This document shows, piece by piece, positions 845-44,500 of a stretch of DNA of 64,000 bases (position 1 is the first letter of the stretch; every line of letters starts with the position of its first letter). A program made the translations under genes and the position numbers. Source of the DNA: Ehretia macrophylla (lineage: Eukaryota; Streptophyta; Magnoliopsida; Boraginales; Ehretiaceae); the NCBI GenBank assembly GCA_037974665.1, contig CM075770.1:23857501-23921500 (forward strand), in the 5' to 3' direction. The notes under the pieces are model-generated. The model did no database searches, was not told the DNA's origin, and worked only from the letters and a program-made list of their open reading frames with translations.

Positions 845-906
845 CATCTCTCTAGGCTAGGACTGTGAACCATCAACACATAAAGGATTTGTGCCCTCAA
901 CATGAT

Positions 907-8423: not shown

Positions 8424-8424
8424 C

Positions 8425-15540: not shown

Positions 15541-18500
15541 GCTGCGCTTGTTTTTGGAGCCCAAAATTGAACGTTTTCATCAGTTTCGGCACACTTTTAT
15601 TCTTTTGCGCTGTTTTTCTGTCCCGGATCGTACGTCGTGAGCTGCAAAAAGGACGACAACCGAATCCATCACATTTCTATAACCGAATCCCACGGCATCT
15701 TAGGCAAGACAACTTCGCTTCACGTAGAGGCTGGGCCTGCAAACCGAGGGCGTGTGGCATGGGACCAGGTTTCCGTCGCTCCAGTGCGCATACTTTTGAT
15801 CCGTAAGGAGTTACACGACGCACAGCACACCGTTGGAAAGCTCTCTAAGAGCTCTACGATAGGGGCAGCAAGCCTACTCAGTTGCGCCTGTTTTCGGAGC
15901 CTAAAATTGAATGTTTTCATTATTTTAGGGATACTTTTCTTCTTTTTCGCTGTTTTTCCATCCCGGATTGAACGTCGTGAGCCGCAAAAAGGACGACGTT
16001 TTGATCCGTAAGAAGTTACGTAGCGCACAGCATACCGTTGGAAAGCTCTCCGAGAGCTCTACGATGGCGGCAGCAAGACTGCTTTGCTGCGCCTGTTTTC
16101 AGATAACAAAATCGAACGTTTTCATCAGTTACGGGACACTTTTCTTCTTTTGCGCTGTTTTTCTGTCCCAGATCGTACGTCGTGAGTCGCGAAAAGGACG
16201 ACAACCTAATCCATCATATTACCGAATCCCACGGCACCTTGGGCAAGACAACTTCGCTTCACGTAGAGGCTGGGCCCGCAAACCGAAGAATTGGGGCTTG
16301 GGACCAGGTTTCCATCGCTCTGGTGCCCATAAATTTTGATCCGTAAGGAGTTACGCAGCGCATAGCATACCGTTGGAAAGCTCTCCGAGAGCTCTACGAT
16401 AGGGGTAGCAAATCTGCTCAGCTATGCCTCTTTTCGAAGCCCAAAATTGAATGTTTTCCTTCGTTCTGGGACACTTTTCCTCTTCTGCTCTATTTTTCCG
16501 TCCCGGATTGTATGTCGTGAGCCGCAAAAAGGATGACAACCAAATCCATCATAATTCTATAACCGAATCTCATGACATCTTTGGTAAGACAACTGCGCTT
16601 CACGTAGAGGCTAGGCCCGCAAACCGAGGGCATGGGGCTTGGGACCAGGTCTCCGTCGCTCCGTTGCCCATAACTTTTGATCCGTAAGGAGTTACGCGGC
16701 GCACAACTTAACGTTGGAAAGCTCTCCGAGAGCTCTACGACGGGGGTAGCTAGCCTACTCGGCTGCGCGTGTTTTTGGAGCACTTAATTGAACATTTTCG
16801 TCAGTTCAGGACACTTTTCTTCTTTTAAGCTGTTTTTCCGTCACGGATCGTATGTCATGAGCCGCGAAAATGATGACAACCTAATCCATCACATTTCTTT
16901 AACCGAATCCCACGGCACCTTTGGTAAGACAACTTCACTTCACGTAGAGGCTGGGCCTGCAAACCGAGGACGTAGGGCTTGGGACCATGTCTTTGTCGAT
17001 CCGGGGCCCATTACTTTTGATCCGTAAGGAGTTACGCAGCGCGCAGCATACCACTTAAAAGGACGACAACCTAATCCATCACATTTCTATTACCGAATTC
17101 CACGTCACCTTGGGCAAGACAACTTCACTTCACGTAAAGGCTAGGCCCGCAAACCAAGGGGCATGGGGCTTGTGACCAGGTATCCGTCGTTCCAGTGCCC
17201 ATACCTTTTTGATCCGCAAGGCATTACGCGGCGCACAGCATATCGTTGGAAAGCTCTCCGAGAGCTCTACGATGGAGGCAGCAAGTCTGCTAGGCTGCGC
17301 CTCTTTTCGTAGCCCAAAATCGAACGTTTTCATTAGTTCCGGGATACTTTTCCTCTTCTACTCTGTTTTTTCGTCCCGGATCGTATATCGTGAGCTGTGA
17401 GAAGGACGACAACCTAATCTATCACATTTCTATTACTGAATCCCACGGCACCTTGGGTAAGACAACTTCGCTTCACGTAGAGGCTGGGCCCGCAAACTGA
17501 GGGCGTGGGGTTTGGGACCAAGTCTCCATCGCTCTGGTGCCCATAAATTTTGATCCGTAAGGAGTTACGCGACGCACAGCATAACGTTGGAAAGCTCTCC
17601 GAGAGCTCTAAGATGGGGGCAGAAAGCTTGCTTTGCTGCGCCTGTTTTCAGAGAACAAAATCGAATGTTTTCATCTGTTTTGGTATACTTTTCTTCGTTT
17701 ACGCTATTTTTCTGTCCCGGATCGTACGTCGTGAGCTGCGAAAAGGACGACAACCTAATCCATCACATAGTCTGGGCCCAGAAATCGAAGAATTGGGGCT
17801 TGGTACCAGGTCTCCGTCGCTCCGGTGCCCATAAATTTTGATCCATAACGAGTTGCGCAGCGCACAGCATACCGTTGGAAAGCTCTCCGAGAGCTCTACG
17901 ATGGGGGCAGCGAGTCTACTCGGCTGTGCCTCTTTTCATTGCCCAAAATCGAACGTTTTCATTCGTTCTAGGACACTTTTCATCTTCTGCTCTATTTTTT
18001 CGTCCCGGATCGTACGTCGTGAGCCGCAAAAAGGACGACAACCTAATCTATCACATTTCTATAACTGAATTCCACGGTACCTTGGACAAGACAACTTCGC
18101 TTCACGTAGAGGCTAGGCCCGCAAACTGAGGGCATGGGGCTTGCGACCAGGTTTCTGTTGTACCAGTGCGCATAACTTTTGATCCGTAAGGAGTTACACG
18201 ACGCACAGTATACCGTTGGAAAGCTCTCTGAGAGCTCCACCATGGGGACAACAAGCCTACTCGGCTCTGCCTATTTTCGTAGCCTAAAATTGAACGTTTT
18301 CATTATTTTCGGGATACTTTTCTTCTTTTGCACTGTTTTTCCGTCCCGGATCAAACGTTGTGAGCTGTAAAAAGGACGACAACTTAATCTATCACATTTC
18401 TTTAAACGAATCCCACGACACCTTTGGTAAGACAACTTCACTTCAATTAGAGGCTGGGCCCGCAAACCGAAGGCGTGCGGCTTGGGGCCAGGTTTTCGTC

Positions 18501-19246
18501 GCTCCAATACGTATAACTTTTGATCCGTAAGGAATTACGCGGCACACAGCATACCGTTGGAAAGCACTCCGAGAGCTCTACGATGGGGGCAACATTCCTA
18601 CTAGGCTACGCCTATTTTTTGTGCCCAAAATCGTACATTTTCATTAGTTTCGGGATACTTTTCTTCTTTTACGCGGTTTTTCCGTCCCGAATCGTATGTC
18701 GTGAGCCGTGAAAAGGATGACATCCTAATCCATCACATTTCTTTAACCGAATCCCATGACACCTTTGGTAAGACAACTTCGCTTCACGTAGAGGCTAGGC
18801 CTGCAAACCGAGGGCGTGGGACTTGGGACCAGGTCTCCGTCGCTCCGTTGCTTATAACTTTTGATCCGTAAGGAGTTATGCGGCGCAAAGCTTAACGTTG
18901 GAAAGCTCTCCGAGAGCTCTACGACGGGGGTAGCAAGCCTGCTCACCTGCGCGTGTTTTTGGAGCCCTTAATTGAACGTTTTCATTAGTTTCAGGTCATT
19001 TTTCTTATTTTTACGCTGTCTTTTCGTCATGGATCGTACGTCGTGAACCGCGAAAAGGACGACAATCTAATCCATCACATTTCTTTAATCGAATCCCACG
19101 TCACCTTTGGTAAGACAACTTCGCTTCACGTAGAGGCTAGGCCCGCAAACCCAGGGCGTAGGGCTTAGGACCAGGTCTCTGTCGCTCTGGGGCCCTTTAC
19201 TTTTGATATGTAAGGAATTACGCGGCGCACAGCATACCGTTGGAAA
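15541..19246 (+). repeat. B1: 341-bp satellite array derived from the 5S spacer, lacking 5S genes
   Basis: About eleven monomers of roughly 341 bp follow the LTR-like block. Each runs from CCATCACATTTCTATTACCG to GGACGACAACCTAAT, which is the spacer interval starting about 70 bp past the 5S gene in A units. The 5S gene, its upstream promoter and the T-rich leader are absent. Bases that separate B from A units recur: GGGACAC or GGATAC for GGGCCAC, GCGCTG for GCTCTG, GAGCCGCGAAAAGG for GAGCTGTTAAAAGG, and TTGGGACC for TTGTGACC. One monomer near 17051 is shortened by about 150-165 bp and one near 17767 lacks about 60 bp. Relative to the duplicate array B2, a 476-bp segment is missing at 15997. 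No gene is seen here. Confidence 0.9.
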
Positions 19247-19517
19247 TCGAACGTTCACATTAGTTTCAGGCCTCTTTTCCACTTTTTCTCAGTTTTTTCG
19301 TCTCGGATCGTATGTCGTAAGCTGTTAAAAGGACGACAACCTAGCTCGCGGGATATTACAGGGCCCTAAAACACGTCGATATCATGTCTTGCGAGGATGC
19401 TGCGTTGTTGAAGCAGATGGGTTGTCGTCAAGCCCATTGGGCCTTTTGAATGGGCCATATCTCTAGGCTGGGACTGTGAACCGTCAACACATAAAGGATT
19501 TGTGCCCACAACATGAC

Positions 19518-19637
19518 GGGTGCGATCATACCAGTATTAATGCACAGGATCCCATCAGAACTCCGAAGTTAAGCTTGCTTGGGCGAGAGTAGTACTAGAT
19601 TGGGTGACCCCTAGGGAAGTCCTCGTGTTGTACCCAC
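19518..19637 (+). rRNA. 5S rRNA gene copy 20
   Basis: Duplicate of the copy at 4909. It keeps ten of its changes but has consensus bases at G48 and C107, so those two changes in the partner are recent. Confidence 0.92.
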
Positions 19638-20196
19638 CTTGTCAATTTTATTTTCCCCGGTTAGGGTTGCCAATATTCTTTATCCATCACATTTCTATTA
19701 ACGAGTCCAACGGCACCTTGGGCAAGACAACTTCGCTGCACGTAAAGGCTGGGCCCATAAACCGAGGGCGTAGGGCTTGTGACCAGGTCTCCGTCGCTCC
19801 GGTGCCCAGAACTTTTGATCCGTAAGAAGTTACGCAGCACACAGCATACCGTTGGAAAGCTCTCTAAGAGCTCTACGACGGGGCCATCAAGCCTACTCGG
19901 CTGCGCCAGTTTTTGAAGCCCAAAATCAAAAGTTTTCATCAATTTTGGGCTACTTTTCATCTTTTACTCGATTTTTTTGTCCCGGATTGTATGTTGTGAG
20001 CTCTTAAAAGGACGGCAACCTAACTCGCAGGATATTACAGGGCCCTACAACGCGTCAATATCACATCTTACGAGGATGCTGCGTTGTTGAATCGGATGGG
20101 TTGTCGTTAAGCCTATTGGGCCTTTTGAATGGGCCATCTCTCTGGGGTGGGACTGTGAACTGTCAACACATAAAGGATTTGTGCCCTCATCATGAT

Positions 20197-20316
20197 AGGT
20201 GCGATCATACCAGCACTAATGTACTGGATCCCATCAGAACTCCGAATTTAAGCGAGCTTGGACGAGAGTAGTACTAGGATGGGTGACCCCCTGGGAAGTC
20301 CTCGTGTTGCACCCCC
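20197..20316 (+). rRNA. 5S rRNA gene copy 21
   Basis: Duplicate of 5588. It has the same five changes plus G1A. Confidence 0.92.
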
Positions 20317-20875
20317 TTTTTCAATTTTTGTTTCCCCGGTTAAGGTTGCCAAGATACTTTATCCACCACATTTCTATTACCGAATCACACGGCACCTTGG
20401 GCAAGACAACTTCACTTCACATAGAGGTTGGGCCCGCAAACCGAGGGCGTGGGGCTTGTGACCAGGTCTCTGTCACTCCGGTGCCCTTAACTTTTAATCC
20501 GTAAGGAGTTACGTGATGCACAGCATACCATTGGAAAGCACTCCGAGAGCTCTACGACGGAGGCAGCAAGCTTGCTCGGATGCGCCCATTTTTGGAGCCC
20601 AAAATCTAATATTTTCATCAGTTTCAAGCCACTTTTCTTCTTTTGCTCTGTTTTTTCGTCCCGGATTGTATGTCGTGAGCTGTTAAAAGGACAACAACCT
20701 TACTCGCTGGACATTAGAGGGCCCTACAAAGCGTCAATATCACGTCTTGCAAGGATACTGCGTTGTTGAAGTGGATGGGTTGTCGTTAAGACCATTGGGC
20801 CTTTTGAATTGGCCATCTCTCTGGGCTGGGACTGTGAACCGTCAACACATAAAGGAATTGTGCCCTCAACATGAC

Positions 20876-20995
20876 GGGTGCAATCATACCAGCACTAATG
20901 CACCAGATCCTATCAGAACTCCGAAGTTAAGCGTGATTGTGTGAGAGTAGTACTAGGATGGGTGACTCCCTAGGAAGTTCTCATGTTGCACCCCC
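20876..20995 (+). rRNA. 5S rRNA gene copy 22
   Basis: Duplicate of 6267, with extra C36T, C61A and G65T; T79 is consensus here. Confidence 0.92.
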
Positions 20996-21554
20996 CGTTT
21001 CTATTTTTTTTGCCCCGGTTAGGGTTGCCAAGATATTTTATCCACCACATTTCTATTACCGAATCCCACGGCACCATGGGCAAGACAACTTCGCTACATG
21101 TAGAGGTTGGGCTCGTAAACCGAGGGCGTAGGGCTTGTGACCAGATCTCCATCGCTCCGGTGCCTATAACTTTTGATCCATAAGGAGTTACGCAACGCAC
21201 AGCATACCGTTGGAAAGCTCTCCGAGAGCTCTATGACAGGGGTAGCAAGCCTGCTCAGCTGTGCCCATTTTTGGAGCCCAAAATCAAACGTTTTCATCAA
21301 CTTTGGGCCACTTTTCTTCTTTTGCTCTATTTTTCCATCCCGAATCGTACGCTGTGAGATGCTAAAAGGACGACAACCTAACTCGCGGGACATTATAGTG
21401 CCCTACAACTCGTCGATATCATGTCTTACGAGGATGGTGCGTTGTTGAAGCAGATGGGTTACCGTTAAGCCCATTGGGCCTTTTCAATGGGCCATTTCCC
21501 TTGGCTGGGAAGGTGAACCGTCAATACATAAAGGAATTGTGCCCTAAACATGAC

Positions 21555-21674
21555 GGGTGCGATCATACCAACATTAATGCACCGGATCCCATCAGAACTC
21601 CGAAGTTAAGTGTGCTTGGGCGAGAGTAGTACTAGGATAGGTGACCCCCTGGGAAGTCCTCGTGTTGCACCCCC
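21555..21674 (+). rRNA. 5S rRNA gene copy 23, best preserved class
   Basis: Only four changes: G17A, C20T, C57T and G85A. Duplicate of 6946. Confidence 0.94.
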
Positions 21675-22233
21675 TTTTTCAATTTTTTTTGCCCCGGTTA
21701 GGGTTCCCAAGATAGTTTATCCATCACATTTCTATTGTCGAATCCCACGGCACCTTGGGCAGGACAACTTCGCTTCACGTAGGGGCTGGGCCCGTAAACC
21801 GAGGGTGTAGGGCTTGTGACCAGGTCTCCGTCGCTTCGATGCCCATAACTTTTGATCCGTAAGGACTTATGCGGTGCACAGTATACCCGTGGAAAGCTCC
21901 CCGAGAGCTCTACTACGTGGGCAGCAAGCCTGCTAGGTTGCGCTTGTTTTTGGATCCCAAAATCGAACGTTTTCATCAGTTTTGGGCTACTTTTCTTCTT
22001 TTGCACTATTTTTCCATCCCGGATCGTACGTCGTGAACTGTTAAAAGGACGACAACCTAACTCGTGAGATATAACAGGGCCCTACAACACGTCAATATCA
22101 CGTTGTACGAGGATGCTGCGTTGTTGAAGCAGATGGGTTGTCGTTAAGCCCATTGGGCCTTTTGAATAGGCCATCTCTCTGGGATGGGACCATGAACCGT
22201 CAACACATAGAGGATTTGTGCCCTCAACATGAC

Positions 22234-22353
22234 GGGTGCGATCATACTAGCATTAATGCACCGGATCCTATCAGAACTCTGAATTTAAGTGTGCTTGGGC
22301 GAGAGTAGTACTAGGATGGGTGACCCCCTGGGAAGTCCTCATGTTGCAACCCT
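22234..22353 (+). rRNA. 5S rRNA gene copy 24
   Basis: Duplicate of 7625 with nine changes; it adds G51T but keeps consensus A77 and G81. Confidence 0.92.
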
Positions 22354-22913
22354 CTTTTCATTTTTTTTTTGCCCCGGTTAGGGTTTCCAAGATACTTTAT
22401 CCACCACATTTCTATTACCGAATCCCACAGCACATTGGGCAAGACAACTTCGCTTCAAGTAGAGGCTGGGCCCGCAAACCGAGGGCATAGGGCTTGTGAC
22501 CAAGTCTCCGTTGCTCCGGTTCCCATAACTTTTGATCCGTAAGGAGTTACGGGGCGCACAACATACTCTAGGAAAGCTCTCCGAGTGCTCCACTACGTGA
22601 GCAGCAGGCCTGCTATGCTGGGTCCCTTTTGGGAGCCCGAAATCAAATGTTTTCATCAGTTTCGGGCTACTTTTCTTCTTTTTCTCTGTTTTTCCATCCC
22701 GTATCGTACGTCGTGAGATGTTAAAAGGACGACAACCTAACTCGCGGGACATTAGAAGGCCCTACAACGCGTCGATATCATGTCTTGCGAGGATGCAGCG
22801 TTGTTGAAGTAGATGGGTTGTCGTTTAGCCTATTGGACCTTTTGAATGGCCCATCTCTCTGGGCTGGGACAGTGAACCGTCAACACATAAAGGATTTGTG
22901 CCCACAACATGAC

Positions 22914-23033
22914 GGGTGCGATCATACCAACACTAATGCACCGGATCCCATCAGAACTCCGAAGTTAAGCATGCTTGGGCGATAGTAGTACTAGGATTGG
23001 TGACCCTCTTGGAAGTCCTCGTGTTGCACCCCC
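22914..23033 (+). rRNA. 5S rRNA gene copy 25
   Basis: Duplicate of 8304: the same five changes plus G85T in box C. Confidence 0.92.
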
Positions 23034-23592
23034 ATTTTCAATTTTTTTTGCCCCGGTTAAGGTTGCCAAGATATTTTATCCACCACATTTCTATTATCGA
23101 ATTCCACGGCACCTTGGGCAAGACAATTTCATTTCACGTAGAGGCTAGGCCCGCAAACCGAGGGCGTGGGGCTTGTGACCAGGTCTGCGTTGCTCCGGTG
23201 CCCATAACTTTTAATCTCTAAGGAGTTACGCGACGGACAGCATATCGTTGGAAAGCTCTCCGAGAGCTCGACGACGGGGGAAGCAAGCCTGCTCAGCTGT
23301 GCTAGTTTTTGGAGCCCAAAAGCTAATATTTTCATAAGTTTCGGGCCACTTTTCTTCTTATGCTCTGTTTTTTCGTCCCGGATCGTACGTCGTGAGCTGT
23401 TAAAAGGATGACAACCTAACTCGTGGTACATTAGAGGGCCTGACAATGCGTCGATATCACGTCCTACGAGGATGCTGCGTTGTTGAAGCGGATGGGTTGT
23501 CGTTAAGCCCGTTGGGCCATTTGAATAGGCGATCTCTCTGGGTTGGGATAGTGAACCATCAACACATAATGGAATTGTGCTCCCAACATGAT

Positions 23593-23712
23593 GGGTGCGA
23601 TCATAGCAGCACTAATGCACTGGATCCCATCAGAATTCTGAAGTTTAGCGTGCTTGGGCGAGAATAGTACTAGGATGGGTGACCCCCTGGGAAGTCCTCG
23701 TGTTGCACCTCC
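23593..23712 (+). rRNA. 5S rRNA gene copy 26
   Basis: Duplicate of 8983. It adds C14G but keeps C20, T79 and G97. Confidence 0.92.
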
Positions 23713-24272
23713 TTTTTCAATTTTTTTTGCCCCGGTTAGAGTTGCCAAGATTCTTTATCCACCACATTTCTATTACCGAATCCCACGGCACCTTGGGCAA
23801 GACAGCTTCGTTTCACGTAGAGGCTGGGCCTGCAAACCGAGGGCGTAGGGCTTGTGACCAGGTCTCCATCGCTCCGGTGCCCATTACTTTTGATCCGTAA
23901 AGAGTTACGCGGCGCACAACATACCGTTGGAAAGCTCTCTGAGAGCTCCACGACGGTGGCAGCAAGACTACTAAGCTGCGCCTATTTTCGGAGCCCAAAA
24001 TCGAACATTTTCATAAGTTTCGAGCCACTTTTCTTCTTTTGCTCTGTTTTTCCATCCTGGATTCATACGTCGTGAGATGGTAAAAGGACGACAACCTAAC
24101 TCGTGGGATATCACAAGGCCCTACAACGCGTCGATATCTTGTCTTACAAGGATGCTACATTATTAAAGCAGATGGGTTGTCGTTAAGCCCATTGGGCCTT
24201 TTGAATGGCCCATCTCTCTGAGCCGGGACTATGAATCGTCAACACATAAATGATTTGTGTCCACAACAAGAC

Positions 24273-24392
24273 AGGTGCGATCATACCAGCACTAATGCAC
24301 CGGATCCCAATAGAACCCCGAAGTTAAGCGTGCTTGGGCGAGAGTAGTACTAGGATGGGTGACCCCCTGGGAAGTCCTCGTGTTGCACCCTC
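24273..24392 (+). rRNA. 5S rRNA gene copy 27
   Basis: Duplicate of 9662 with five changes: G1A, T38A, C39T, T45C and C119T. Confidence 0.92.
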
Positions 24393-24950
24393 TTTTTCCA
24401 TTTTTTTTCCCCAAGTTAGGGTTGCCAAGATACTTTATCCACCACATTTCTATTACCGAATCCCACAGCACCTTGGGCAAGACAACTTCACTTCACGTAG
24501 ACATTGGGCCTGCAAACTGAGGGCGTAGGGCTTATGACCAGGTCTCCGTCGTTCTGGTACCCATAACTTTTGATCTGTAAGGAGTTACGCGGCACACAGC
24601 ACACCGTTGGAAAGCTCTCCAAGAGCTCTACGATGGGGGTAGCAAGCCTACTCAGCTGTGCCCATTTTTGGAGCCCAAAATTAAACATTTTCATCAGTTT
24701 TGGTCCACTTTTCTACTTTTACTCTATTTTTTCATCCCGGATCGTATGTCGTGAACTGTTAAAAGGACAACCACCTAACTCAAGGATATTACAGGGCCCT
24801 ACAACTCGTCGATATCATGTCTTATGAGGATGCTGCGTTGTTGAAGCAAATGGGTTGTCGTTAAGCCCATTGGGCCTTTTGAATGGGCCATCTCTCTAGG
24901 CTGGGACTGTGAACCGTCAACACATAAAGGATTTGCGCCCTCAACATGAC

Positions 24951-25070
24951 GAGTGCGATCATACCAGCACTAACGCACCGGATCCCATAAGAACTCCGAA
25001 GTTAAGCGTGCTTGGGTGAGAGTGGTACTAGGATGGGTGACCCCCTAGGAAGTCCTTGTGTTGCACCCCT
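24951..25070 (+). rRNA. 5S rRNA gene copy 28
   Basis: Duplicate of 10341: G2A, T24C, C39A, C67T, A74G, C107T and C120T are shared, G97A is private. Confidence 0.92.
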
Positions 25071-25591
25071 CTTTTCAATTTTTTTTCCCCGATTAGGGTT
25101 GCCAAGATACTTTATCCACCATATTTCTATTACCGAATCCCACAGCTCCTTAGGCAAGACAACTTCGCATCACGTAGAGGCTGGGCCCGCAAACTGAGGG
25201 CGTGGTGCTTGTCACCGGGTCTCCGTCACTCCGGTGCCCATAACTTTTAATCTGTAAGGAGTTACGCGATGCACAACATACCGTTGGAAAGCTCTCCGAG
25301 AGCTCTACTCCGTGGGCAGCAAGCCTGCTTAGCTGTGCCCCTTTTTGGAGCCCAAAATCGAACGTTTTCATCAGTTTCGGGCCACTTTTCTTCTTTTGCT
25401 CTGTTTTTTCGTCCCGGATCATATGTTGTGAGCTGTTAAAAGGACGACAACCTAACTCGCGGGACATTAGAGGGCCCTACAACGTATCGATATCACGTCT
25501 TGCGAGCATGCTACGTTGTTGAAGCAGATGGGTTGTCGTTAAGCCCATTGGGCCTTTTAAACACATAAAGGAATTGTGCCCTCAACAAGAT

Positions 25592-25711
25592 GGGTGCCAT
25601 CATACCAGCACTAATGCACCAAATCCCATCAGAACTACGAAGTTAAGCGTGCTTGGGCGAGACTAGTACTATGATGGGTGACCCCTAGGGAAGTCCTCGT
25701 GTTGCACCCCC
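25592..25711 (+). rRNA. 5S rRNA gene copy 29
   Basis: Duplicate of 11020, with a private G81T. A 38-bp spacer deletion at about 25558 removes the hairpin arm and part of the proximal spacer, but the -27 box is kept. Confidence 0.92.
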
Positions 25712-26269
25712 CTTTTCAATTTTTTTTGCCCCGGTTAGGGTTGCCATGATACTTTATCCACCACATTTCTATTACCGAATCCCACAGTACCTTGGGCAAG
25801 AAAACTTCGCCTCACGTAGAGGCTGGGCCTGCAAACCGAGGGCGTAGGGCTTGTGACCAGGTCTTCGTCGCTCCGGTTCCCATAACTTTTAATTCATAAG
25901 GAGCTACGCGGCGCACAGTATACCATTGGAAAGCTCTCCGAGAGCTCTACGACGGGGGCAACAAGCTTGCTAAGGTGCACTTGTTTCGGAGCCCAAAATA
26001 GAACGTTTTCATCAGTTTTGGGCCATTTTTCTTCTTTTGCTCTGTTTTCTCATCCTGGATCGTACGTTGTGAGCTGTTAAAAGGACGACAACCTTACTCG
26101 CGGGATATTACAGGGCCCTACAATACATCGATATCACGTCTTACGAGGATGCTGGGTTGTTGAAGCAGATAGGTTATCGTTAAGCCCATTGGGCCTTTTG
26201 AATGGTCCATCTCTCTGGGCTGGGACTGTGAACCGTCAACACATAAAGGATTTGTGCCCTTAACATGAC

Positions 26270-26389
26270 GGGTGTGATCATACCAGCACTAATGCACCAG
26301 ATCCTATCAGAACTCCGAAGTTAAGCGTGATTGGGCGAGAGTAGTACTAGGATGGGTGACCCCCTGAAAAGTCCTCGTGTTGCACCACC
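26270..26389 (+). rRNA. 5S rRNA gene copy 30
   Basis: Duplicate of 11697 with seven changes: C6T, G30A, C36T, C61A, G98A, G99A and C118A. Confidence 0.92.
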
Positions 26390-26948
26390 CTTTTCAATTT
26401 TTTTTGCCCTGGTTAGGGTTGCCAAAATACTTTATCCACCACATTTCTATTACCGAATCCCACGGCACCTTGGGCAAGATAACTTCGTTTCGCGTAGAGG
26501 CTGGGCCCGTAAACCGGGGGCATAGGGATTGTGACCAGGTCTCCGTGGCTCCGTTGCCCATAACTTTTAATTCGTAAGTAGTTACGCGGTGCACAGCATA
26601 CCGTTGGAAAGCTCTCCGAGAGCTCTACGACGGGGGCAGCAGGCTTGCTAAGTTGCGCCTATTTTCAGAGCCTAAAATCGAACGTTTTCATCAGTTTTGG
26701 CCTATTTTTCTTCTTTTGCTCTGTTTTTCCGTCCCAGATCGTACGTCGTGAGCTGTTAAAAAGATGACTACCTGACTCGCTGGACGCTAGAGGGCCCTAC
26801 AACGCGTCGATATCACGTCTTCCGAGGATGCTACATTGTTGAAGCTGATGGGTTGTCGTTAAGCCCATTGGGCTGTTTGAATGGGCCATCTCTCTAGGCT
26901 GGGACTGTAAACCGTCAACACATAAAGGATTTGTGCCCTCAACATTAC

Positions 26949-27067
26949 GGGTGTGATAATACCAGCACTAATGTACCGGATCCCATCAGAACTCTGAAGT
27001 TAAACGTACTTGGGCGAGATTAGTACTTGGATGGGTGACCCCCTGGGAAGCCTCGTGTTGCACCCCC
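26949..27067 (+). rRNA. 5S rRNA gene copy 31, joined to LTR-like block
   Basis: Duplicate of 12376 with the same missing base near nt 103 and the same fusion to TAGCCAGTAGCG; it adds C6T, C47T and G56A. Confidence 0.9.
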
Positions 27068-31433: not shown

Positions 31434-34250
31434 GTGCCTCTTTTCGAAGCCCAAAATCGAATGTTTTCCTTCGTTCTGGGACACTTTTCCTCTTCTGCTC
31501 TGTTTTTCCGTCCCGGATCGTATGTCGTGAGCCGCAAAAAGGACGACAACCAAATCCATCATAATTCTATAACCGAATCCCACGACACCTTTGGTAAGAC
31601 AACTTCGCTTCACGTAGAGGCTGGGCCCGCAAACCGAGGGCGTGGGGCTTGGGACCAGGTCTCCGTCGCTCCGTTGCCCATAACTTTTGATCCGTAAAGA
31701 GTTACGCGGCGCACAACTTAACGTTGGAAAGCTCTCCGAGAGCTCTACGACGGGGGTAGCAAGCCTACTCGGTTGCGCGTGTTTTTGGAGCACTTAATTG
31801 AACGTTTTCGTCAGTTCAGGACACTTTTCTTCTTTTGCGCTGTTTTTCCGTCACGGATCGTATGTCGTGAGCCGCGAAAATGATGACAACCTAATCCATC
31901 ACATTTCTTTAACCGAATCCCACAGCATCTTTGGTAAGACAACTTCACTTCACGTAGAGGCTGGGCACGCAAACCGAGGACGTAGGGCTTGAGACCAAGT
32001 CTTTGTCGATCCGGGGCCCATTACTTTTGATCCGTAAGGAGTTACGCAGCGCGCAGCATACCAGTGAAAAGGACGACAACCTAATCCATCACATTTCTAT
32101 TACCGAATTCCACGGCACCTTGGGCAAGACAACTTCACTTCACGTAGAGGCTAGGCCCGCAAACCAAGGGGCATGGGGCTTGTGACCAGGTATCCGTCGT
32201 TCTAGTGCCCATACCTTTTTGATCCGCAAGGCATTACGCGGCGCACAGCATATCGTTGGAAAGCTCTCCGAGAGCTCTACGATGGAGGCAGCAAGTCTGC
32301 TAGGCTGCGCCTCTTTTTGTAGCCCAAAATCGAACGTTTTCATTAGTTCCGGGATACTTTTCCTCTTCTACTCTGTTTTTTCATCCTGGATCGTATATCG
32401 TGAGCTGTGAAAAGGACGACAACCTAATCTATCACATTTCTATTACCGAATCCCACGGCACCTTGGGTAAGACAACTTCGCTTCACGTAGAGGCTGGGCC
32501 CGCAAACTGAGGGCGTGGGGTTTGGGACCAAGTCTCCGTCGCTCTGGTGCCATAAATTTTGATCTGTAAGGAGTTACGCGACGCACAGCATAACGTTGGA
32601 AAGCTCTCCGAGAGCTCTAAGATGGGGGCAGAAAGCTTGCTTTGCTGCGCCTGTTTTCAGAGAACAAAATCGAACGTTTTCATCTGTTTTGGTATATTTT
32701 TCTTCGTTTGCGCTATTTTTCTGTCCCGGATCGTACGTCGTGAGCTGCGAAAAGGACGACAACCTAATCCATCACATAGGCTGGGCCCGCAAATCGAAGA
32801 ATTGGGGCTTGGGACCAGGTCTCCGTCGCTCCGGTGCCCATAAATTTTGGTCCATAACGAGTTGTGCAGCGCACAGCTTACCGTTGGAAAGCTCTCCGAG
32901 AGCTCTACGACGGGGGCAGCGAGTCTACTCGGCTGTGCCTCTTTTCATTCCCCAAAATCGAACGTTTTCATTCGTTCTAGGACACTTTTCATCTTCTGCT
33001 CTATTTTTTCGTCCCGAATCGTACGTCGTGAGCCGCAAAAAGGACGACAACCTAATCCATCACATTTCTATAACTGAATTCCACGGTACCTTGGACAAGA
33101 CAACTTCGCTTCACGTAGAGGCTAGGCCCGCAAACTGAGGGCATGGGGCTTGCGACCAGGTTTCTGTCGCACCAGTGCGCATAACTTTTGATCCGTAAGG
33201 AGTTACATGACGCACAGTATACCGTTGGAAAGCTCTCTGAGAGCTCCACCATGGGGACAACAAGCCTACTCGGCTCTGCCTATTTTCGTAGCCTAAAATT
33301 GAACGTTTTCATTATTTTCGGGATACTTTTCTTCTTTTGCACTGTTTTTCCGTCCCGAATCAAACGTTGTGAGCTGTAAAAAGGACGACAACTTAATCTA
33401 TCACATTTCTTTAAACGAATCCCACGACACCTTTGGTAAGACAACTTCACTTCAATTAGAGGCTGGGCCCGCAAACCGAAGGCGTGCGGCTTGGGGCCAG
33501 GTTTCCGTCGCTCTAATACGTATAACTTTTGATCCGTAAGGAATTACGCGGCACACAACATACCGTTGGAAAGCACTCCGAGAGCTCTACGATGGGGGCA
33601 ACATGCCTACTAGGCTGCGCCTATTTTTCGTGCCCTAAATCGTACATTTTCATTAGTTTCAGGATACTTTTCTTCTTTTGCGCGGTTTTTTCGTCCCGAA
33701 TCGTATGTCGTGAGCCGCGAAAAGGATGACATCCTAATCCATCACATTTCTTTAACTGAATCCCATGACACCTTTGGTAAGACAACTTCGCTTCACGTAG
33801 AGGCTGGGCCTGCAAACCGAGGGCGTGGGACTTGGGACCAGGTCTCCGTCGCTCCGTTGCTTATAACTTTTGATCCGTAAGGAGTTATGCGGCGCAAAGC
33901 TTAACGTTGGAAAGCTCTCCGAGAGCTCTACGACGGGGGTAGCAAGCCTGCTCACCTGCGCGTGTTTTTGGAGCCCTTAATTGAACGTTTTCATTAGTTT
34001 CAGGTCATTTTTCTTATTTTTACGCTATTTTTTCGTCATGGATCGTACGTCGTGAACCACGAAAAGGACGACAACCTAATCCATCACATTTTTTTAATCG
34101 AATCCCACGTCACCTTTGGTAAGACAACTTCGCTTCACGTAGAGGCTGGGCCCGCAAACCCAGGGCGTAGGGCTTAGGACCAGGTCTCTGTCGCTCTGAG
34201 GCCCTTTACTTTTGATATGTAAGGAATTACGCGGCGCACAGCATACCGTT
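31434..34250 (+). repeat. Block repeated at about 7.3 kb offset (left copy)
   Basis: The monomer order matches about 38760-41590 at offsets of 7298-7353 bp. It includes the shortened monomer (32061 with 39363), the AGAGAACAAAATCG monomer (32657 with 39960) and the CGTA-CCTAAAATTG monomer (33286 with 40639). Confidence 0.7.
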
Positions 34251-37200
34251 GGAAAGCTCTCCGAGAGCTCTACAATGGGGGTAGCATGCCTACTCGGCTA
34301 TGCCTATTTTTCATGCCCAAAATCGTACATTTTCAATAGTTTCAGTATACTTTTCTTCTTCTGCGCGGTTTTTTTGTCCCGAATCGTACGTCGTGAGCCG
34401 ATAAAAGGATGACATCTTAATCCATCACATTTCTTTAACCAAATCCCACGGCACCTTTGGTAAGACAACTTCGCTTCACGTAGACGCTGGGCCCGCAAAC
34501 TGAGGGCGTGGGGCTTGGGACCAAGTCTCCGTTGCACCATTGCCCATAACTTTTGATCCGCAAAGAGTTATGCAGTGCACAACTTATCGTTGGAAAGCTC
34601 TTCGAGAGCGCTACGATGGGGGCAGCAATCCTGCTCGGCTGCGCGTGTTTTTGGTGCCCTTAATTGAACATTTTCATCAGATTCGGGACACTTTTCTTCT
34701 TTTGCGCTGTTTTTCCATCACGGATCGCACGTTGTGAGCCGCGAAAAGGACAACAACCTAATCCATCACATTTCTTTAACCGAATCCCACTGCACCTTTG
34801 GTCAGACAACTTGGCTTCACGTAGAGGCTGGGCCCGCAAACCGAGGGCATAGGGCTCGGGACCATGTCTCTATCGTTCCGAGGCCCATTACTTTTGACCC
34901 GTAAGGAGTTACGCGGCCCACAGCATGCCGTTGGAAAGCTCTCCGAGAGTTCTACGACGGGGGCAACAAGACTGCTCAGCTACGCCTATTTTCGGAGACC
35001 AAAATTGAACATTTTTATCAGTTTCGGGATACTTTTCTTCTTTTGCCCTATTTTTTCGTCCCGGATCGTACGTCATGAGCCGCGAAAAGAACGACAAGCT
35101 AATCCATCATATTTCTATTATCGAATCCCACGGCACCTTGGGCAAGAGAACTTTACTTCACGTAGAGGCTGGGCCTGCAAACCAAGGGACGTGGGGCTTG
35201 TGACCAGGTATCCGTCGTTCCCGTGCCCATAACTTTTTGATCCGCAAGGCATTACGCGGCGCATAACATACCGTTGGAAAGCTCTTCGAGAGCTCTACGA
35301 TGGAGAGAGCGAGTCTGCTCGGTTGCGCCTCTTTTCAGAGCAAAAAAATGATCATTTTCATCAGTTCCGAGACACTTTTCCTCTTCTACTATGTCTTTCC
35401 GTCCCGGATCGTACGTCGTGAGCTGTGAAAAGGACGACCACCTAATCTATCACATTTCTATTACCGAATCCCACGGCACCTTGGGCAAGAAAACCTCGCT
35501 TCACGTAGAGGCTGGGCCCGCAAACCGAGGGTGTGGGGCTTGAGACCAAGTCTCCGTCGCTCCGGTGCCCATAAATTTTGATCCGTAAGGAGTTGCGCAG
35601 CGCACAACATACCGTTGGAAAGCTCTCGGAGAGCTCTACCATGGGGGCAGCAAGCCTACTCGGTTACGCCTGTTTTTTGAGCCTAAAATTGAATGTTTTC
35701 ATTATTTTGGGATACTTTTCTTCTTTTGCGTTGTTTTTTCGTCCCAGATCAAACGTCGTGAGCTGCAAAAAGGACGACAACCTAATCTATCACATTTCTA
35801 TTACCGAATCCCACGGTACCGTGGGCAAGACAACTTCGCTTCATGTAGAGGCTGGGCCCGCAAACCGAGGGCGTGGGGATTAGGACCAAGTTTCCGTCGC
35901 TCCAGTGCGTATAACTTTTGATCCGTAAGGAATTATGCGACGCACAGCATACCGTTAGAAAGCTCTTCAAGAGCTCTATGATGGGGGCAGCATGCCTACT
36001 CGACTGCGACTATTTTTTGTGCCCAAAATTGTACATTTTCATTCATTTTGGGATACTTTTCTTCTTCTGCACGATTTTTCAGTCTCGGATCGTACATCGT
36101 GAGCTGCGAAAAGGATGACATCCTAATTCATCACAATTCTTTAACCGAATCCCATGGCACCTTTGGTAAGACAAGTTCGCTTCACGTAGAGGCTGGGCTT
36201 GCAAACCGAGGGCGTGGGACTTGGGACCAGGTCTCCGTCGCTCCGTTGCTTATAACTTTTGATCCGTAAGGAGTTATGCGGCGCAAAGCTTAACGTTGGA
36301 AAGCTCTCCGAGAGCTCTACGACGGGGGCAGCAAGCTTGCTCAGCTGCGCGTGTTTTTGGAGCCCTTAATTGAACATTTTCATTAGTTTCAGGTCATTTT
36401 TCTTCTTTTACGCTGTTTTTTCGTCATGGATCATACGTCGTGAACCGCGAAAGGGATGACAACCTAATCCATCACATTTCTTTAACCGAATCCCACGTCA
36501 CCTTTGGTAAGAAAACTTCACTTCACGTAGAGGCTGGGCCTGAAAACCGAGGGCATAGGGTTTAGGACCAGGTCTCTGTCGCTCTGGGGCCCTTTACTTT
36601 TGATCTGTAAGGAATTACGCGGTGCACAGCATACCGTTGGAAAGCTCTCCGAGAGCTCTACGATGGGGGCAGCATGCCTACTCGGCTGCGCCTATTTTTC
36701 GTGCCCAAAATCGTACATTTTCAATAGTTTCGGGATACTTTTCTTCTTCTGCGCGGTTTTTTTGTCCCGGATCGTACTTCGTGAGCTGCTAAAAGGATGA
36801 CATCCTAATCCATCATATTTCTTTAACCGAATCCCACGGCACCTTTGGTAAGACAACTTCGCTTCACGTAGATGCTGGGCCCGCAAACTGAGGGCGTGGG
36901 GCTTGGGACCAAGTCTCCGTCGCTCCGTTGGCCATAACTTTTGATATGTAAAGAGTTATGCAGTGCACAACTTAACGTTGGAAAGCTCTCCGAGAGCACT
37001 ACGACGGGGGTAGCACGCCTGCTCGGCTGCGCGTGTTTTTGGTGCCCTTAATTGAACGTTTTCATAAGTTTTGGGACACTTTTATTCTTTTGCGCTGTTT
37101 TACCATCACGTATCGTACATCGTGAGCCGCGAAAAGGACAACAACCTAATCCATCACATTTCTTTAACCGAATCCCATTGCACCTTTGGTCAGACAACTT

Positions 37201-38600
37201 CGCTTCACGTAGAGGTTGGGCCCGCAAACCGAGGGGTAGGGCTTGGGACTAGGTCTCTATCGCTCTGAGGCCAATTACTTTTGACCTGTAAGGAGTTATG
37301 TAGCACACAGCATGCCATTGGAAAGCTCTCCGAGAGTTCTACGACGGGGGCAACAAGACTACTCAGCTACGCCTATTTTCGGAGACCAAAATCGAATATT
37401 TTTATCAATTTTGGGACACTTTTCTTCTTTTGCCCTATTTTTTCGTCACGGATCGTACGTCGTTAGCCGCGAAGAGGTCGACAACCTAATCCATCACATT
37501 TCTATTACCGAATCCCACGACACCTTGGGCAAGAGAACTTCACTTCACGTAGAGGCTGGGCCCGCAAACCAAGGGACGTGGGGCTTGTGACCAGGTATCC
37601 ATCTTTCCGGTGCCCATAACTTTTTGATCCGCAGGGCATTACGCATCGCACAGCATACCGTTGGAAAGCTCTTCGAAAGCTCTACGATGAAGAGAGCGAG
37701 TCTGCTCGGCTGCGCCTCTTTTCGGAGCCCAAAATTGAACATTTTCATCAGTTCCGGGACACTTTTCCTCTTCTACTATGTTTTTCCGTCCCGGATCGTA
37801 TGTCGTGAGCTGCGAAAAGGACGACAACCTAATCTATCACATTTCTATTACCGAATCCCACGGTACCTTGGGCTAGAAAACTTCGCTTCACGTAGAGGTT
37901 GGGCCTGCAAACCGAGGACGTGGGGCTTAAGACTAGGTCTCCGTCGCTCCGGTGCCCATAAATTTTGATCCGTAAGGAGTTGCGCAGTGCACAGCATACC
38001 GTTGGAAAGCTCTCCGAGAGCTCTACCATGGAGGCAGCAAGCCTACTCGGTTATGCCTGTTTTCGGAGCCTAAAATTGAATGTTTTCGTTATTTTTGGGA
38101 TACTTTTCTTCTTTTGCGTTGTTTTTTCGTCCCGGATCAAATGTCGTGAGCTGCAAAAAGGATGACAACCTAATCTATCACATTTCTATTAACGAATCCA
38201 ACGGTACCGTGGGCAAGACAACTTCGCTTCACGTAGAGGCTGGGCCCGCAAACTGAGGGCATGGGGATTGGGACCAGGTTTCCGTCGCTCTAGTGCGTAT
38301 AACTTTTGATCCGTAAGGAATTATGTGGCGCACAGCATACCGTTAGAAAGCTCTCCGAGAGCTCTACGATAGGGGCAGCATGCCTACTCGACTGTGAATT
38401 TTTTTGTGCCCAAAATCATACATTTTCATTCATTTCGGGATACTTTTCTTCTTCTGCATGGTTTTTCTGTCCCGGATCGTACGTCGTGAGCCGCGAAAAG
38501 GATGACATCCTAATCCATCACATTTCTTTAACCGAATCCCACGGCAACTTTGGTAAGACAACTTCGCTTCACGTAAAGGTTGGGCCCGCAAACCGATGAA
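33188..38600 (+). repeat. Higher-order repeat, 7 monomers (about 2388 bp)
   Basis: Monomers repeat in type at 2387-2390 bp: 33188 with 35578 and 37965, 33529 with 35918 and 38306, 34212 with 36600. Markers include the run with GGCGCAAAGCTTAACG near 33890 and 36278, and GGAGACCAAAAT near 34995 and 37381. A little over two periods are present. Seven monomers of 341 bp give 2387 bp. Confidence 0.8.
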
Positions 38601-38759
38601 TTGGGGCTTGGGACAAGGTCTCCGTCGCTCCGGTGCCCATAAATTTTGATCCGTAAGGAGTTGCGCAGTGCACATCATACCGTTAGAAAGCTCTCCGAGA
38701 GATCTACGACAAGGGCAGCGAGTCTGCTCGGCTGTGCCTCTTTTTGAATCCCAAATCAA

Positions 38760-41590
38760 ACGTTTTCATTCGTTCTAGGACACATTTCCTCTTCTGCTCT
38801 GTTTTTCCGTCCCGGATCGTACGTCGTGAGCTGCAAAAATGACGACAACCAAATCCATCACATTTCTATAATCAAATCCCACGGCACCTTTGGTAAGACA
38901 ACTTCGCTTCACGTAGAGGCTGGGCCCGTAAACCCAGGGCGTGGGGCTTGGGACCAGGTCTCCGTCGCCCCATTGCCCATAACTTTTGATCCGTAAGGAG
39001 TTACGCGATGCACAGCTTAATGTTGGAAAGCTCTCCGAGAGCTCTACGATGGGGGTAGCAAGCCTGCTCGGCTGCGTGTGTTTTTGGAGCACTTAATTGA
39101 ACGTTTTCATCAGTTTTGGGACACTTTTCTTCTTTTGCGCTGTTTTTTCGTCACGAATCGTATGTCGTGAGCTGCGAAAAGGATGACAACCTAATCCATC
39201 ACATTTCTTTAACCGAATCCCACGGCACCTTTGGTAAGACAACTTCGCTTCACGTAGAGGCTGGGCCCGCAAATCGAGGGCGTAGGGCTTGGGACCAAGT
39301 CTCTGTCGCTCCGGGGCCCATTACTTTTGATCCGTAAGGAGTTACGCGGCGCACAGCATACCGTTGAAATGGACAACAACCTAATCCATCACATTTCTAT
39401 TACTGAATTCCTCGGTACCTTGTGCAAGACAACTTCACTTCACGTAGAGGCTGGGCCCGCAAACCAAGGGGCGTGAGACTTGTGACCAGGTATCTGTTGT
39501 TCCGGTGCCCATAACTTTTTGATCCACACAGCGTTACGGGGAGCACAGCATACTGTTCGAAAGCTCTCCGAGAGCTCTATGATGGAAGTAGCGAGTTTGC
39601 TCGGCTGCGCCTCTTTTCGGAGCCCAAAATCGAACGTTTTCATCAGTTTTGGGATACTTTTCCTCTTCTACTATGTTTTTCCATCCCGGATCGTACGTCA
39701 TGAGCTGCGAAAAGGACGACAACCTAATCTATCACATTTCTATTACTGAATGCCATGGCACCTTGGGCAAGACAACTTCGCTTCACGTAGAGGCTGGGCC
39801 CGCAAACCGAGGGCATGGGGCTTGGGACCAGGTCTCCGTCGCTCCGGTGCCCATAAATTTTGATCTGTAAGGAGTTATGCGGCGCACAGCATACCGTTGG
39901 AAAGCTCTCTAAGAGCTCTACAATAGGGGCAGCAAGCTTGCTTTGCTGCACCTATTTTCAGAGAACAAAATCGAATGTTTTCATCAGTTTCGGGACACTT
40001 TTCTTCTTTTGCGCTGTTTTTTCGTCCCGAAACGTACGTCGTGAGACGCGAAAAGGATGACAACCTAATCCATCACATTTCTATTACTGAATACCACGGT
40101 ACCTTGGGCAAGACAACTTCGCTTCACGTAGAGGCTGGGCTCGCAAATGGAAGAATTGGGGCTTGGGACCAGGTCTCCGTCGCTCCGATGCCCATAAATT
40201 TTGATCCATAACGAGTTACGCAGCGCACAACATACCGTTGGAAACCTCTCCGAGAGCTCTACGACAGGGGTAGAGAGTCTGCTCTGCTGTGCCTCTTTTC
40301 GGAGCCCAAAATCACACGTTTTCATTCTTTCTGGGACACTTTTCCTTTTCTGCTATGTTTTTCCGTCCCGGATCGTACGTCGTGAGCCGCAAATAGGACG
40401 ACACCTAATCCATCACATTTCTATAACCGAATCCCACTGTACCTTGGGCAAGACAACTTCGCTTCACGTAGAGGCTGGGCCCGCAAACAGAGGGCGTAGG
40501 GCTTGCGACCAGGTTTTCGTCGTACCAGTGCACATAACTTTTGATCCGTAAAGAATTACACGGCGCACAGTATATCGTTGGAAAGCTCTCCGAGAGCTCT
40601 ACCATGGGGACAGCAAGCCTACTCGGCTGTGCCTATTTTCGTAACCTAAAATTGAACGTTTTCATTATTTTCGGGATACTTTTCTTCTTTTGCCCTATTT
40701 TTTCATCCCGGATCAAACATCGTGAGCCAGAAAAAGGATGAAAACCTAATCCATCATATTTCTTTAAACGAATCCCACGACACCTTAGGTAAGACAACTT
40801 CACTTCACGTAGAGGCTGGGCTGGCAAATCGAGGGCGTGGGGCTTGGGATTAGGTTTCCGTCGCTCCAGTACATATAACTTTTGATCTGTAAGGAATTAC
40901 GCGGCACACAATATACCGTTGGAAAGCTCTCCGAGAGCTCTAAGATGGGGGCAGCAGGCCTACTCGGCTGCGCCTATTTTTCGTGCCCAAAATCGTAAAT
41001 TTTCATTAGTTTTGGGATACTTTTATTCTTTTGCGCGGTTTTTCCGTCCCGGATCGTATGTCATGAGTCGCGAAAAGGATGACATCCTAATCCATCACAT
41101 TTCTTTAACCAAATCCCATGGCACCTTTGGTAAGACAACTTCACTTTACGTAGATGCTGGGCCCGTAAACCAAGGGCGTGGGGCTTTGGACCAGGTCTCC
41201 GTCGCTCCGTTGCCCATAACTTTTGATCCGTAAGGAGTTATGCGGCGCACAGCTTAACGTTGGAAAGCTCTCCAAGAGCTCTATGACGGAGGCAGCAAGC
41301 CTGTTCAGATGCGCGTGTTTTTGGAGCCCTTAATTGAACATTTTCATTAGTTTCGGGTCATTTTCCTTCTTTTGCGCTGTTTTTCCGTCATGGATCGTAC
41401 GTCGTGAACCGCGAAAAGGACAACCTAATCCATCACATTTCTTTAACCGAATCCTACGTCACCTTTGGTAAGACAACTTCGCTTCACGTAGAGGCTGGGC
41501 ACGCAAACCGAGGGCGTAGGGCTTAGGACCTGGTCTCTGTCGCTCTGGGCCCCATTACTTTTGATCCGTAAGGAGTTATGCGGCGCATAG
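38760..41590 (+). repeat. Block repeated at about 7.3 kb offset (right copy)
   Basis: This is the partner of 31434-34250. It holds the second shortened monomer at about 39363, where ATACCGTTGAAATGG joins directly to ACAACCTAATCC. Divergence from the left copy is clearly higher than between the 15-kb duplicates, so it is the older event. Confidence 0.65.
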
Positions 41591-44500
41591 CATACCGTTG
41601 GAAAGCTCTCCGAGAGCTCTACGATGGGGGCAACAAGACTGCTCAGTTACGCCAATTTTTGGATACCAAAATTGAACGTTTTTATTAGTTTCGGGACACT
41701 TTTCTTCTTTTGCCCTGTTTTTTCATCCCGGATCGTACGTCGTGAGCCGCGAAAAGGACGACTACCTAATCCATCACATTTCTATTTCTGAATCCCACTG
41801 CACCTTGGGCAAGACAACTTCACTTCACGTAGAGGTTGGGCCCGCAAACCAAGGGGCGTGGGGTTTGTGACCAGGTATCCGTCGTTCCGGTGGCCATAAC
41901 TTTTTGATCCGCAAGGCGTTACGCGGTGAACAGCATACCGTTGGAAAGCTCTCTGAGAGCTCTATGATGGAAGTAGTGTGTCTGCTCGGCTGCGCCTCTT
42001 CTCGGAGCCCAAAATCGAACGTTTTCATCAGTTCCGGGATACATTTTCTCTTCTACTCTGTTTTTTTGTCCCGGATCGTAAGTCGTGAGCTGCGAAAAGG
42101 ATGACAACCTAATCTATCACGTTTCTATTACCGAATCCCATGACACCTTGGGCTAGACAACTTTGTTTCATGTAGAGACTGGGCCCGCAAACCGAGGGCG
42201 TGGGGCTTGGGATCATGTTTCTGTTGCTCAGGTGCGTATACCTTTTGATTCGTAAAGAGTTACGCGGCGCACATCATACCTTTGGAAAGCTCTCTAAGAG
42301 CTCTACGTTGGGGGCAGTGAGTATGCTCGGTTGCGCCTATTTTTGGATCCAAAAATCGAACGTTTTCATCAGTTTCGGGACACTTTTCTTCTTTTGCGCT
42401 GTTTTTTCATCTCGGATTGTACATCATGAACCGCGAAAAGGACGACAACCTAATCCATCACATTTCTATTATCGAATCCCATGACACCTTAGGCAAGACA
42501 ACTTCGCTTCACTTAGAGGCTGGGCCCGCAAACTGAGGGCATGGGGCTTGGGACTAGGTCTCCGTCGCTCCGGTGCTCATAACTTTTGATCTGTAAAGAG
42601 TTACGCGGCGCACTACATACTGTTGGAAAGCTCTCCAAGTGCTCTACGACGGGGGTAGCGAGTATGCCCTGCTGCGCCTATTTTCGGAGCCCAAAATCGA
42701 ACATTTTCATCAGTTTTGGGATACTTTTCTTCTTTTGCGCTGCTTTTCCGTCCCGGATCGTATGTCGTGAGCTGCGAAAAGGACAACAACCTAATCCATC
42801 ACATTTATATTACCGAATCCCATGGCATCTTGGGCAAGGCAACTTCACTTCATGTAGAGGCTAGGCCTGCAAACTGAGGGCGCGGGGCTTGGGACTAGGT
42901 CTCCGTCGGTTCGGTGCCCAAACCTTTGATCCGTAAGTAGTTACGCACCGCACAACGCACCGTTGGAAAGCTCTCCGAGAGCTCTAGGACGGGCGTAGCA
43001 AGCTTGCTAGGCTGCGCCTATTTTCGGAGCCCAAAATTGAAAGTTTTCATCTGTTCCGGGACACTTTTTCTATTCTGCTATGTTTTTTCGTCCCACATCG
43101 TACGTCATGAGCCGTGAAAAGGACGACAACCTAATCCATCACATTTTTATTACCGAATCCCACGACACCTTGGGCAAGACAACTTGGCTTCACGTAGAGG
43201 TTGGGCCTGCAAACCGAGGGCGTAGGGATTAGGACCAGGTCTCCACTGCTTCGGTACCCATAAATTTTGATCTGTAAGGAGTTACGCGGCATACAACATT
43301 CTGTTGGAAAGCTCTCTAGGAGCTCTACGATGGGGGCAGCAAGCTTGCCCAGCAGCGCCTATTTTCTAAGTCAAAAATCGAACGTTTCCTTCAATTTCGG
43401 GACACTTTTCTTCTTTTGTGCTGTTTTTTCGTCCTGGATTGTACGTCATGAGCTGCGAAAAGAAAGACAACCTAATCCACCACATTTCTATTACCGAATC
43501 CCATGGCACATTGGGCAATACAACTTCGCTTAACGTAGAGGTTGGTCCAGCAAATCGAGGGCGTGGGGCTTAGGACTAGGTTTCCGTCGCTCCGGTGCGC
43601 ATAACTTTTGATCCATAAGGAGTTACGTGGCGCACAACATACCGTTGGAAAGCTCTCTGAGAGCTCTACGACGGGGACAGCAAGGCTATTCGGCTATGCC
43701 TATTTTCGAGCCCAAAATCGAAAGTTTTCATTAGTTTCGGGATACTTTTATTCTTTTGCGCTATTTTTTCATCCCGGATCGTATGTCGTGAGCCGCGAAA
43801 AGGACGACAACCTAATCCATCACATTTCTATTACCGAATCCCATAGCACCTTGGGTAAGACAACTTTGCTTCACGTAGAGGCTGGGCCCGCAAACCGAGG
43901 GCGTAGGGCTTGGGACTAGGGCTCCGTCGCTCCGGTGCCCATAACTTTTGATCCGTAACAAGTTACGCAGCGCACAGCATAACGTTCGAAAGCTCTCCGA
44001 GAGCTCTACGACGGGGGTAGCAATCTTGCTCAGCTGCGCCTATTTTCAGAGCCCAAAATCGAACATTTTCGTCATTTCTGGAACACTTTTCCTCTTCTGC
44101 TTTGTTTTTTCGACCCGGATCGTACGTCGTGAGCCGTGGAAGGAACGAATTTTTTCCCCTTGTTAAGGTTACCAAGATACTTTAACCGCCACATTTCTAT
44201 TACCGAATCCCACGGCACCTTGGGCAAGACAACTTCGCTTCACGTAGAGGCTGGGCCCGCAAACCGACGGCGTGGGGCTTGTGACCAAGTCTCTGTCGTT
44301 ACGGTGCCCATAACTTTTAATCCGTAAAGAGTTACGTGACACACAACATACCGTTGGAAAGCCCCCCAAGAGCTCTACGATGGGGGCAGCAAGCTTGCTT
44401 GGCTGTGCCCGGTTTTGGAGCCCAAAATCAAATATTTTCATCGGTTTCGGGTAACTTTTCTTCTTTTGCTCTATTTTTCTGTCTCGGATCGTACATTGTG

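Follow-up and report, generated by a model that had tools for sequence, protein, structure and literature searches.

The 64,000 nucleotides analysed here (the window) come from Ehretia macrophylla (GenBank assembly GCA_037974665.1, contig CM075770.1, positions 23,857,501 to 23,921,500) and hold a tandem array of 5S ribosomal RNA (rRNA) genes, in which repeat units that carry a gene (A units) lie beside tandem 341-bp monomers that carry none (B monomers). We conclude that this is probably a silent, decaying 5S locus of plant type with a local, single-origin, spacer-only satellite, started by a deletion that spanned the gene. The steps by which a satellite was born and then stalled can be read here in order: a single join, growth by blocks, and about 80 copies (84 rows after deduplication) drifting independently. 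Additionally, the copies of parent and offspring can be set against each other one by one, which lets one ask whether a satellite evolves differently after its gene has been lost.

The array is plant-type, with 60 matches to the 5S rRNA family (Rfam RF00001), all on the + strand. Taken by themselves, its 5S consensus and its decay at CG and CHG sites would point to a plant, probably a flowering one. The last match is cut by the window end, and the 59 others, which are the genes scored below, reach 63.9-105.9 bits. The A unit is about 679 bp long, and 47 of the 57 gene-to-gene intervals in the A stretches measure 675-681 bp. Units were aligned from the 48 of these intervals that are 670-690 bp long, or from 38 once the second copy of a segmental duplication, described below, had been removed.

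Two blocks of the window are without any 5S match and consist of tandem B monomers (Table 1). Each monomer corresponds to A-unit positions 165-506, with single alignments extending a few bases beyond at most, and starts 46 bp downstream of the 5S gene on the A unit, nearer than the roughly 70 bp given in the initial annotation of this DNA. A query with the remainder of the unit (337 bp, comprising both flanks and the 5S gene) at E <= 10 gave 75 matches in the window, of which two fell inside the B blocks, both of them 14-bp chance matches (E 8.9). B monomers are spacer-only, as had been claimed from the start: they have no gene, no 5' flank and no terminator. The 13 and 43 pieces of the two blocks include 47 of full length and amount, by arithmetic, to about 52 monomer-lengths, close to the 53 monomers first estimated.

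B has also acquired its own sequence character. Fifteen alignment columns distinguish the A consensus from the B consensus, five of them diagnostic at >= 70% in both groups. Mean identity is 0.848 within A, 0.827 within B and 0.814 between B monomers and A cores, where it ranges from 0.757 to 0.874. Three strings first put forward as diagnostic are indeed confined to B within the window but are far from fixed there: GGGACAC has 15 copies, GCGCTG 12 and GAGCCGCGAAAAGG six, with none elsewhere. B is probably a 5S ribosomal DNA (rDNA)-derived satellite: it shows homology to part of a 5S unit and forms its own head-to-tail array with diagnostic changes.

The monomers largely share one join. The canonical joint, 506|165, is present in 46 of the 54 B-B joints (8 of 12 in block 1 and 38 of 42 in block 2). 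Its sequence, CCTAATCCATCAC, occurs in 28 copies in the B blocks and nowhere else in the window, and the continuation found in A units, CCTAACTCGCG, is absent from the B blocks and present 23 times elsewhere. Comparison of the consensuses by eye gives a 1-bp overlap at the join (A left side CCTAACTCG, A right side CTTTATCC, B CCTAATCC).

A tree restricted to full-length pieces (56 A cores and 47 B monomers, 103 of the 119 core pieces) parts A from B on one branch (support 99/96), a result shared by 98% of 200 bootstrap trees; dropping the 19 rows that belong to the second duplicate copy leaves the deduplicated set of 84. The A and B labels need a single change on this tree, against a mean of 34 when labels are shuffled, and none of 500 shuffles was as low. 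Thus, B arose once, which bears out the proposal that it amplified as a separate lineage. Repeated nesting of B monomers with neighbouring A units, named beforehand as the pattern that would speak against that proposal, was looked for on the tree and not found.

Gene-spanning deletions are visible elsewhere in the array. One, at 52.1 kb, left a 428-bp gene-less spacer stretch behind another spacer. The two stretches are 82% alike, as is any pair of units, and this is therefore a deletion and not a fresh duplication. A second deletion, at 60.5 kb, crosses a unit border and reaches into the gene, and the join at the right edge of B is also gene-less, with endpoints other than 506|165. The 52.1-kb deletion is a model for how B could start. 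Such recurrence is also what one would expect had B monomers been born many times, through repeated local loss of the gene from adjoining A units. However, the 52.1-kb and 60.5-kb deletions have different endpoints, most B-B joints are identical, and the tree asks for one change where shuffled labels ask for many; we find an origin by repeated gene loss barely credible.

The following course of events would account for a single origin. An ancestral A array would have lost about 338 bp by deletion, from spacer position 506 of one unit to position 165 of the next with the 1-bp overlap, and with this segment its 5' flank, 5S gene and terminator. One such deletion would place two spacers side by side without a gene, which is a B dimer with the final join already formed. 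Unequal exchange, which we infer as the motor of growth, would then have multiplied this dimer, partly in blocks of several monomers (seven in one case), to about 41 monomers; homogenisation of the neighbouring A array may have been roughly contemporaneous or have followed shortly after. Once homogenisation had stopped, each copy of A and of B would have drifted on its own. Most of this change would be C-to-T at CG and CHG sites, as methylated heterochromatin leads one to expect. As a final step, a tandem duplication of 14.6-15.0 kb, taking in A units, an insert and B, would have given the locus its interleaved look.

The state of the genes fits a locus no longer maintained. None of the 59 genes is identical to the array consensus; each carries 4-16 mismatches, with a mean of 8.0, and the three internal promoter blocks, at what we take to be their positions in the 5S gene, are all exact in only two of the 59. 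Conserved genes under selection, as in a functional plant 5S array, were not found here. Across the 38 deduplicated units, C-to-T change at CG sites is 0.184 for the core and 0.191 for the 5' flank, and the gene, at 0.180, comes close to both; in the 3' flank a lone CG site gives 0.079 for its C and 0.211 for its G. Mean pairwise identity in the same units is 0.874 for the gene, 0.845 for the core, 0.859 for the 5' flank and 0.888 for the 3' flank. Judged from its sequence, the locus looks dead, with no consensus gene left and a CG- and CHG-biased decay about equal in gene and spacer, and the C-to-T pattern indicates that it is probably methylated.

Decay also runs alike in parent and satellite. 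Measured against a shared consensus, it is 0.186 in A and 0.183 in B at CG sites, and 0.188 and 0.185 at CHG sites. Gene loss made no visible change in tempo at these sites. The suggestion that losing the RNA polymerase III promoter and terminator freed B to evolve as a satellite therefore finds no footing: the 5S genes decay nearly as fast as the spacer, and A and B evolve equally at CG and CHG sites, a likeness that seems to stem from the decay of the parent genes themselves.

Several results pull the other way from a gene lost by deletion in a now silent array. On the side of the genes, these change less at A sites than other parts do, their identity, slightly above that of the core and 5' flank though below that of the 3' flank, would allow for weak or past constraint, and mismatches to a consensus do not prove each 5S copy non-functional. 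On the side of the founding event, the deletion, which the initial annotation held to be readable, can be read as a consensus join, but the spacer-to-promoter transition expected between A and B is kept at neither edge of the B block. Thirty alignment columns share two alleles at >= 15% in both A and B; many of these are C/T or G/A, and parallel decay accounts for part of them, while exchange between A and B is possible. Additionally, slow sites are more changed in B, with 0.050 against 0.037 in A at A/T sites and 0.114 against 0.074 at other C/G sites. B is therefore not simply a young offshoot of the present A units. This extra divergence suggests that B variants began separating before the last sweep of the A array, and B, assuming similar rates, would appear to be no younger than the A cohort now present.

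The root of the tree is a further point of this kind. A is star-like and B has deeper sub-branches. Midpoint rooting places the root inside B and makes the A star a group within B, as would be expected if A were nested there. The best root by minimum variance also lies inside B, with the A|B branch ninth of 166 at a nearly equal value. Under a non-reversible root model the A|B branch is not rejected (log-likelihood difference 1.76, Kishino-Hasegawa (KH) p 0.155, Shimodaira-Hasegawa (SH) p 0.905); among the roots listed, the best falls on a single A tip and those next in rank fall inside B, and many roots inside A or B are likewise not rejected. As these rootings disagree or are nearly flat, the tree, which covers only A and B copies of this window, does not show B emerging from A, and the direction from A to B is one that we infer.

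The two roots inside B and the greater divergence of B at slow sites would suit the reverse direction, in which a short 5S unit (about 338 bp) captured one monomer of an existing, independent 341-bp satellite as its spacer, the resulting 679-bp unit took over, and B is the parent. If true, the 5S locus would have drawn its spacer from a satellite, and the two partners would still be neighbours. About 338 bp would be a normal length for a plant 5S unit, which counts in favour of capture. A satellite representing the 5S spacer has, in part of the published account, been reported in Tribolium freemani (PMC11202950). Capture, however, requires the insertion of exactly one monomer, and inspection of the consensus by eye shows no duplicated target site of >= 3 bp where the captured segment would meet the rest of the A unit. 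All 57 unit intervals are at least 597 bp long (the shortest measures 597 bp), which leaves none that could be a core-less 338-bp unit. The rootings differ too little to settle the matter, and a star-like A is equally expected from a recent sweep of a parent array. We thus regard capture as unlikely. Loss of the gene from A by deletion is the most likely course, because a gene-spanning deletion in the same array left a gene-less copy at 52.1 kb.

Traces of block-wise growth persist in B block 2. There, 32778-36980 matches 35166-39366 at a lag of 7.0 monomers with 88.9% identity, and 30073-32777 matches 37364-40078 at a lag of 21.4 monomers with 86.9%; adjacent B monomers average 82%. A similar broken joint recurs at 17052/17074, 32071/32084 and 39369/39384, as expected from duplication in blocks. 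Close to the right edge (42112-43815), no monomer has a partner above 0.871. Neighbours are otherwise not distinguished: adjacent and overall identity are 0.850 and 0.849 in one A stretch, 0.847 and 0.844 in another, and 0.822 and 0.825 in B block 2. There is no sign of neighbour homogenisation in A or B, near copies being no more alike than distant ones. The A units at 47273-54371 contain duplications of blocks of about two units, at about 89-90% identity; thus, the A array likewise grew by blocks in places.

That B is interleaved with its parent array is correct as to position, but the arrangement is the product of a later duplication, and given similar rates the A units now present would, if anything, be the younger of the two. 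The two copies of this duplication are collinear in four self-match pieces at 97.2-97.8%, having diverged by 2.2-2.8% in each. The duplicated segment opens with A units that hold twelve 5S genes; at the 3' end of the last of these a 3-kb insert starts, and the left portion of the B block follows it. A and B alternate because the tandem duplication copied all of these together. Two separate insertions of B are ruled out by this collinearity over 14.6-15.0 kb. The state before duplication is a single B block of about 41 monomers, with A units on both sides and the insert at its left edge. Where the copies meet, the middle of a B monomer abuts the middle of an A spacer. The span first assigned to B, 15541-44147, accordingly takes in the A units and the insert of the second copy.

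The last 5S gene of the left A array (12376-12493) is full length by Rfam; the insert starts at its 3' end, so this gene is without terminator and spacer. Comparison with Pfam gave no family for the five of the insert's 13 listed open reading frames (ORFs) that were scanned. The insert also holds a 199-nt direct repeat (71%).

Such an arrangement might arise in assembly, from misjoined repeats that make the duplication a false join. Tandem arrays are hard to assemble, the join lies inside repeats, and two haplotypes placed in succession would resemble duplicate copies. Yet the copies differ in all four pieces to the extent given above, and copy 1 alone has lost about 475 bp. Between other A and B copies the average difference is 15-18%, and long reads should therefore be easy to place. 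We consider an assembly artefact quite improbable.

Table 1. Coordinates of the features of the 5S locus, counted from the first base of the window
Feature	Position	Strand	Basis or remarks
A units, 5S rDNA array	1..12493	+	Rfam RF00001 matches, unit alignments, sequence
Duplication copy 1	4635..19246	+	A units with twelve 5S genes, insert, B monomers; lacks ~475 bp of B present in copy 2
Insert, first copy	12494..15540	.	3.05 kb, no long ORF; follows the 3' end of a 5S gene and runs up to a B monomer truncated at A-unit position 383
B block 1	15541..19246	+	13 pieces of 341-bp monomers; 8/12 joints canonical
Duplication join	19244..19246	.	B core position 177 to A-unit position 406; 3-base overlap AAA
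Duplication copy 2	19244..34255	+	Self-match
A units of copy 2	19247..27066	+	End in a copy of the 5S gene seen at 12376-12493
Insert, second copy	27067..30072	.	97.9% identity to the first copy over 2998 bp
B block 2	30073..44148	+	43 pieces; 38/42 joints canonical; contains older multi-monomer duplications
Right edge of B	44130..44160	+	Monomer broken near core position 334, joined to A-unit 3' flank (~127-134); not the founding join
A units right of B	44152..64000	+	Rfam 5S matches, unit alignments
Independent gene-spanning deletion in the A array	51690..52555	+	A-unit ~672 joined to 236; microhomology CAA

Satellites derived from 5S rDNA are already known, and the present case is most likely another example of a known route of satellite birth. 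The comparisons that follow draw on parts of the published descriptions. PLsatB, for which Kumke et al. 2016 is reportedly the original report, resembles B in being a plant satellite of similar monomer length and, probably, in its 5S origin. It is described as a 5S rDNA-derived satellite on the B chromosome of Plantago lagopus, a 325-bp cluster specific to that chromosome, whose amplification included 5S rDNA fragments (PMC6410184). Here, in contrast, a pure-spacer monomer lies inside the 5S array, and the two are likened by description, not by sequence. A 5S-derived satellite has also been described in a fish, Hoplias malabaricus (PMC5437419), and the PcP190 satellite of frogs is described as keeping a 120-bp region like the transcribed 5S gene (PMC11675491). 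Both were born from a 5S unit, as B probably was; PcP190 differs in retaining a gene-like region, whereas B monomers have nothing of the gene.

To judge by the title of Almeida et al. 2012, the contrast in evolution between a satellite and the spacer ancestral to it is a published theme. Satellites of potato, Vicia sativa and Phaseolus stem from the 35S/45S spacer, whereas B probably stems from the 5S spacer. They are known as derivatives of the rDNA intergenic spacer, an origin that they would share with B in the parts described (PMC12692304). In Tribolium freemani, 5S genes and gene-less satellite arrays share sequence, as here, and have retrotransposons between them; this is an animal, however, and by the part of the account used could represent the rival direction, a gene joined to an existing satellite (PMC11202950). 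The 5S locus on wheat 5B is comparable in being transposon-interrupted, with a less conserved pool thought to make more non-functional RNA, but the part of its description used mentions no spacer-only satellite (PMC5688495). Among the satellites compared in this way, none is, in the parts described, both spacer-only and inside its own 5S array; we claim no priority on this account.

Two other views of the A unit were considered and rejected. An array of Cassandra, a 5S-bearing terminal-repeat retrotransposon in miniature (TRIM), is at odds with the scarcity of its primer site: the motif, which we take to be that of the tRNA-Met primer binding site, has three matches in 64 kb at <= 2 mismatches, where 3.75 are expected by chance, against 57 unit intervals. 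The unit length, close to twice 341 bp, would also allow for two related halves, but self-comparison of the consensus gave only a short palindrome, besides matches with E >= 2.4. This palindrome, at A-consensus positions 332-364 (GGAAAGCTCTCCGAGAGCTC...), is common to the A and B consensuses.

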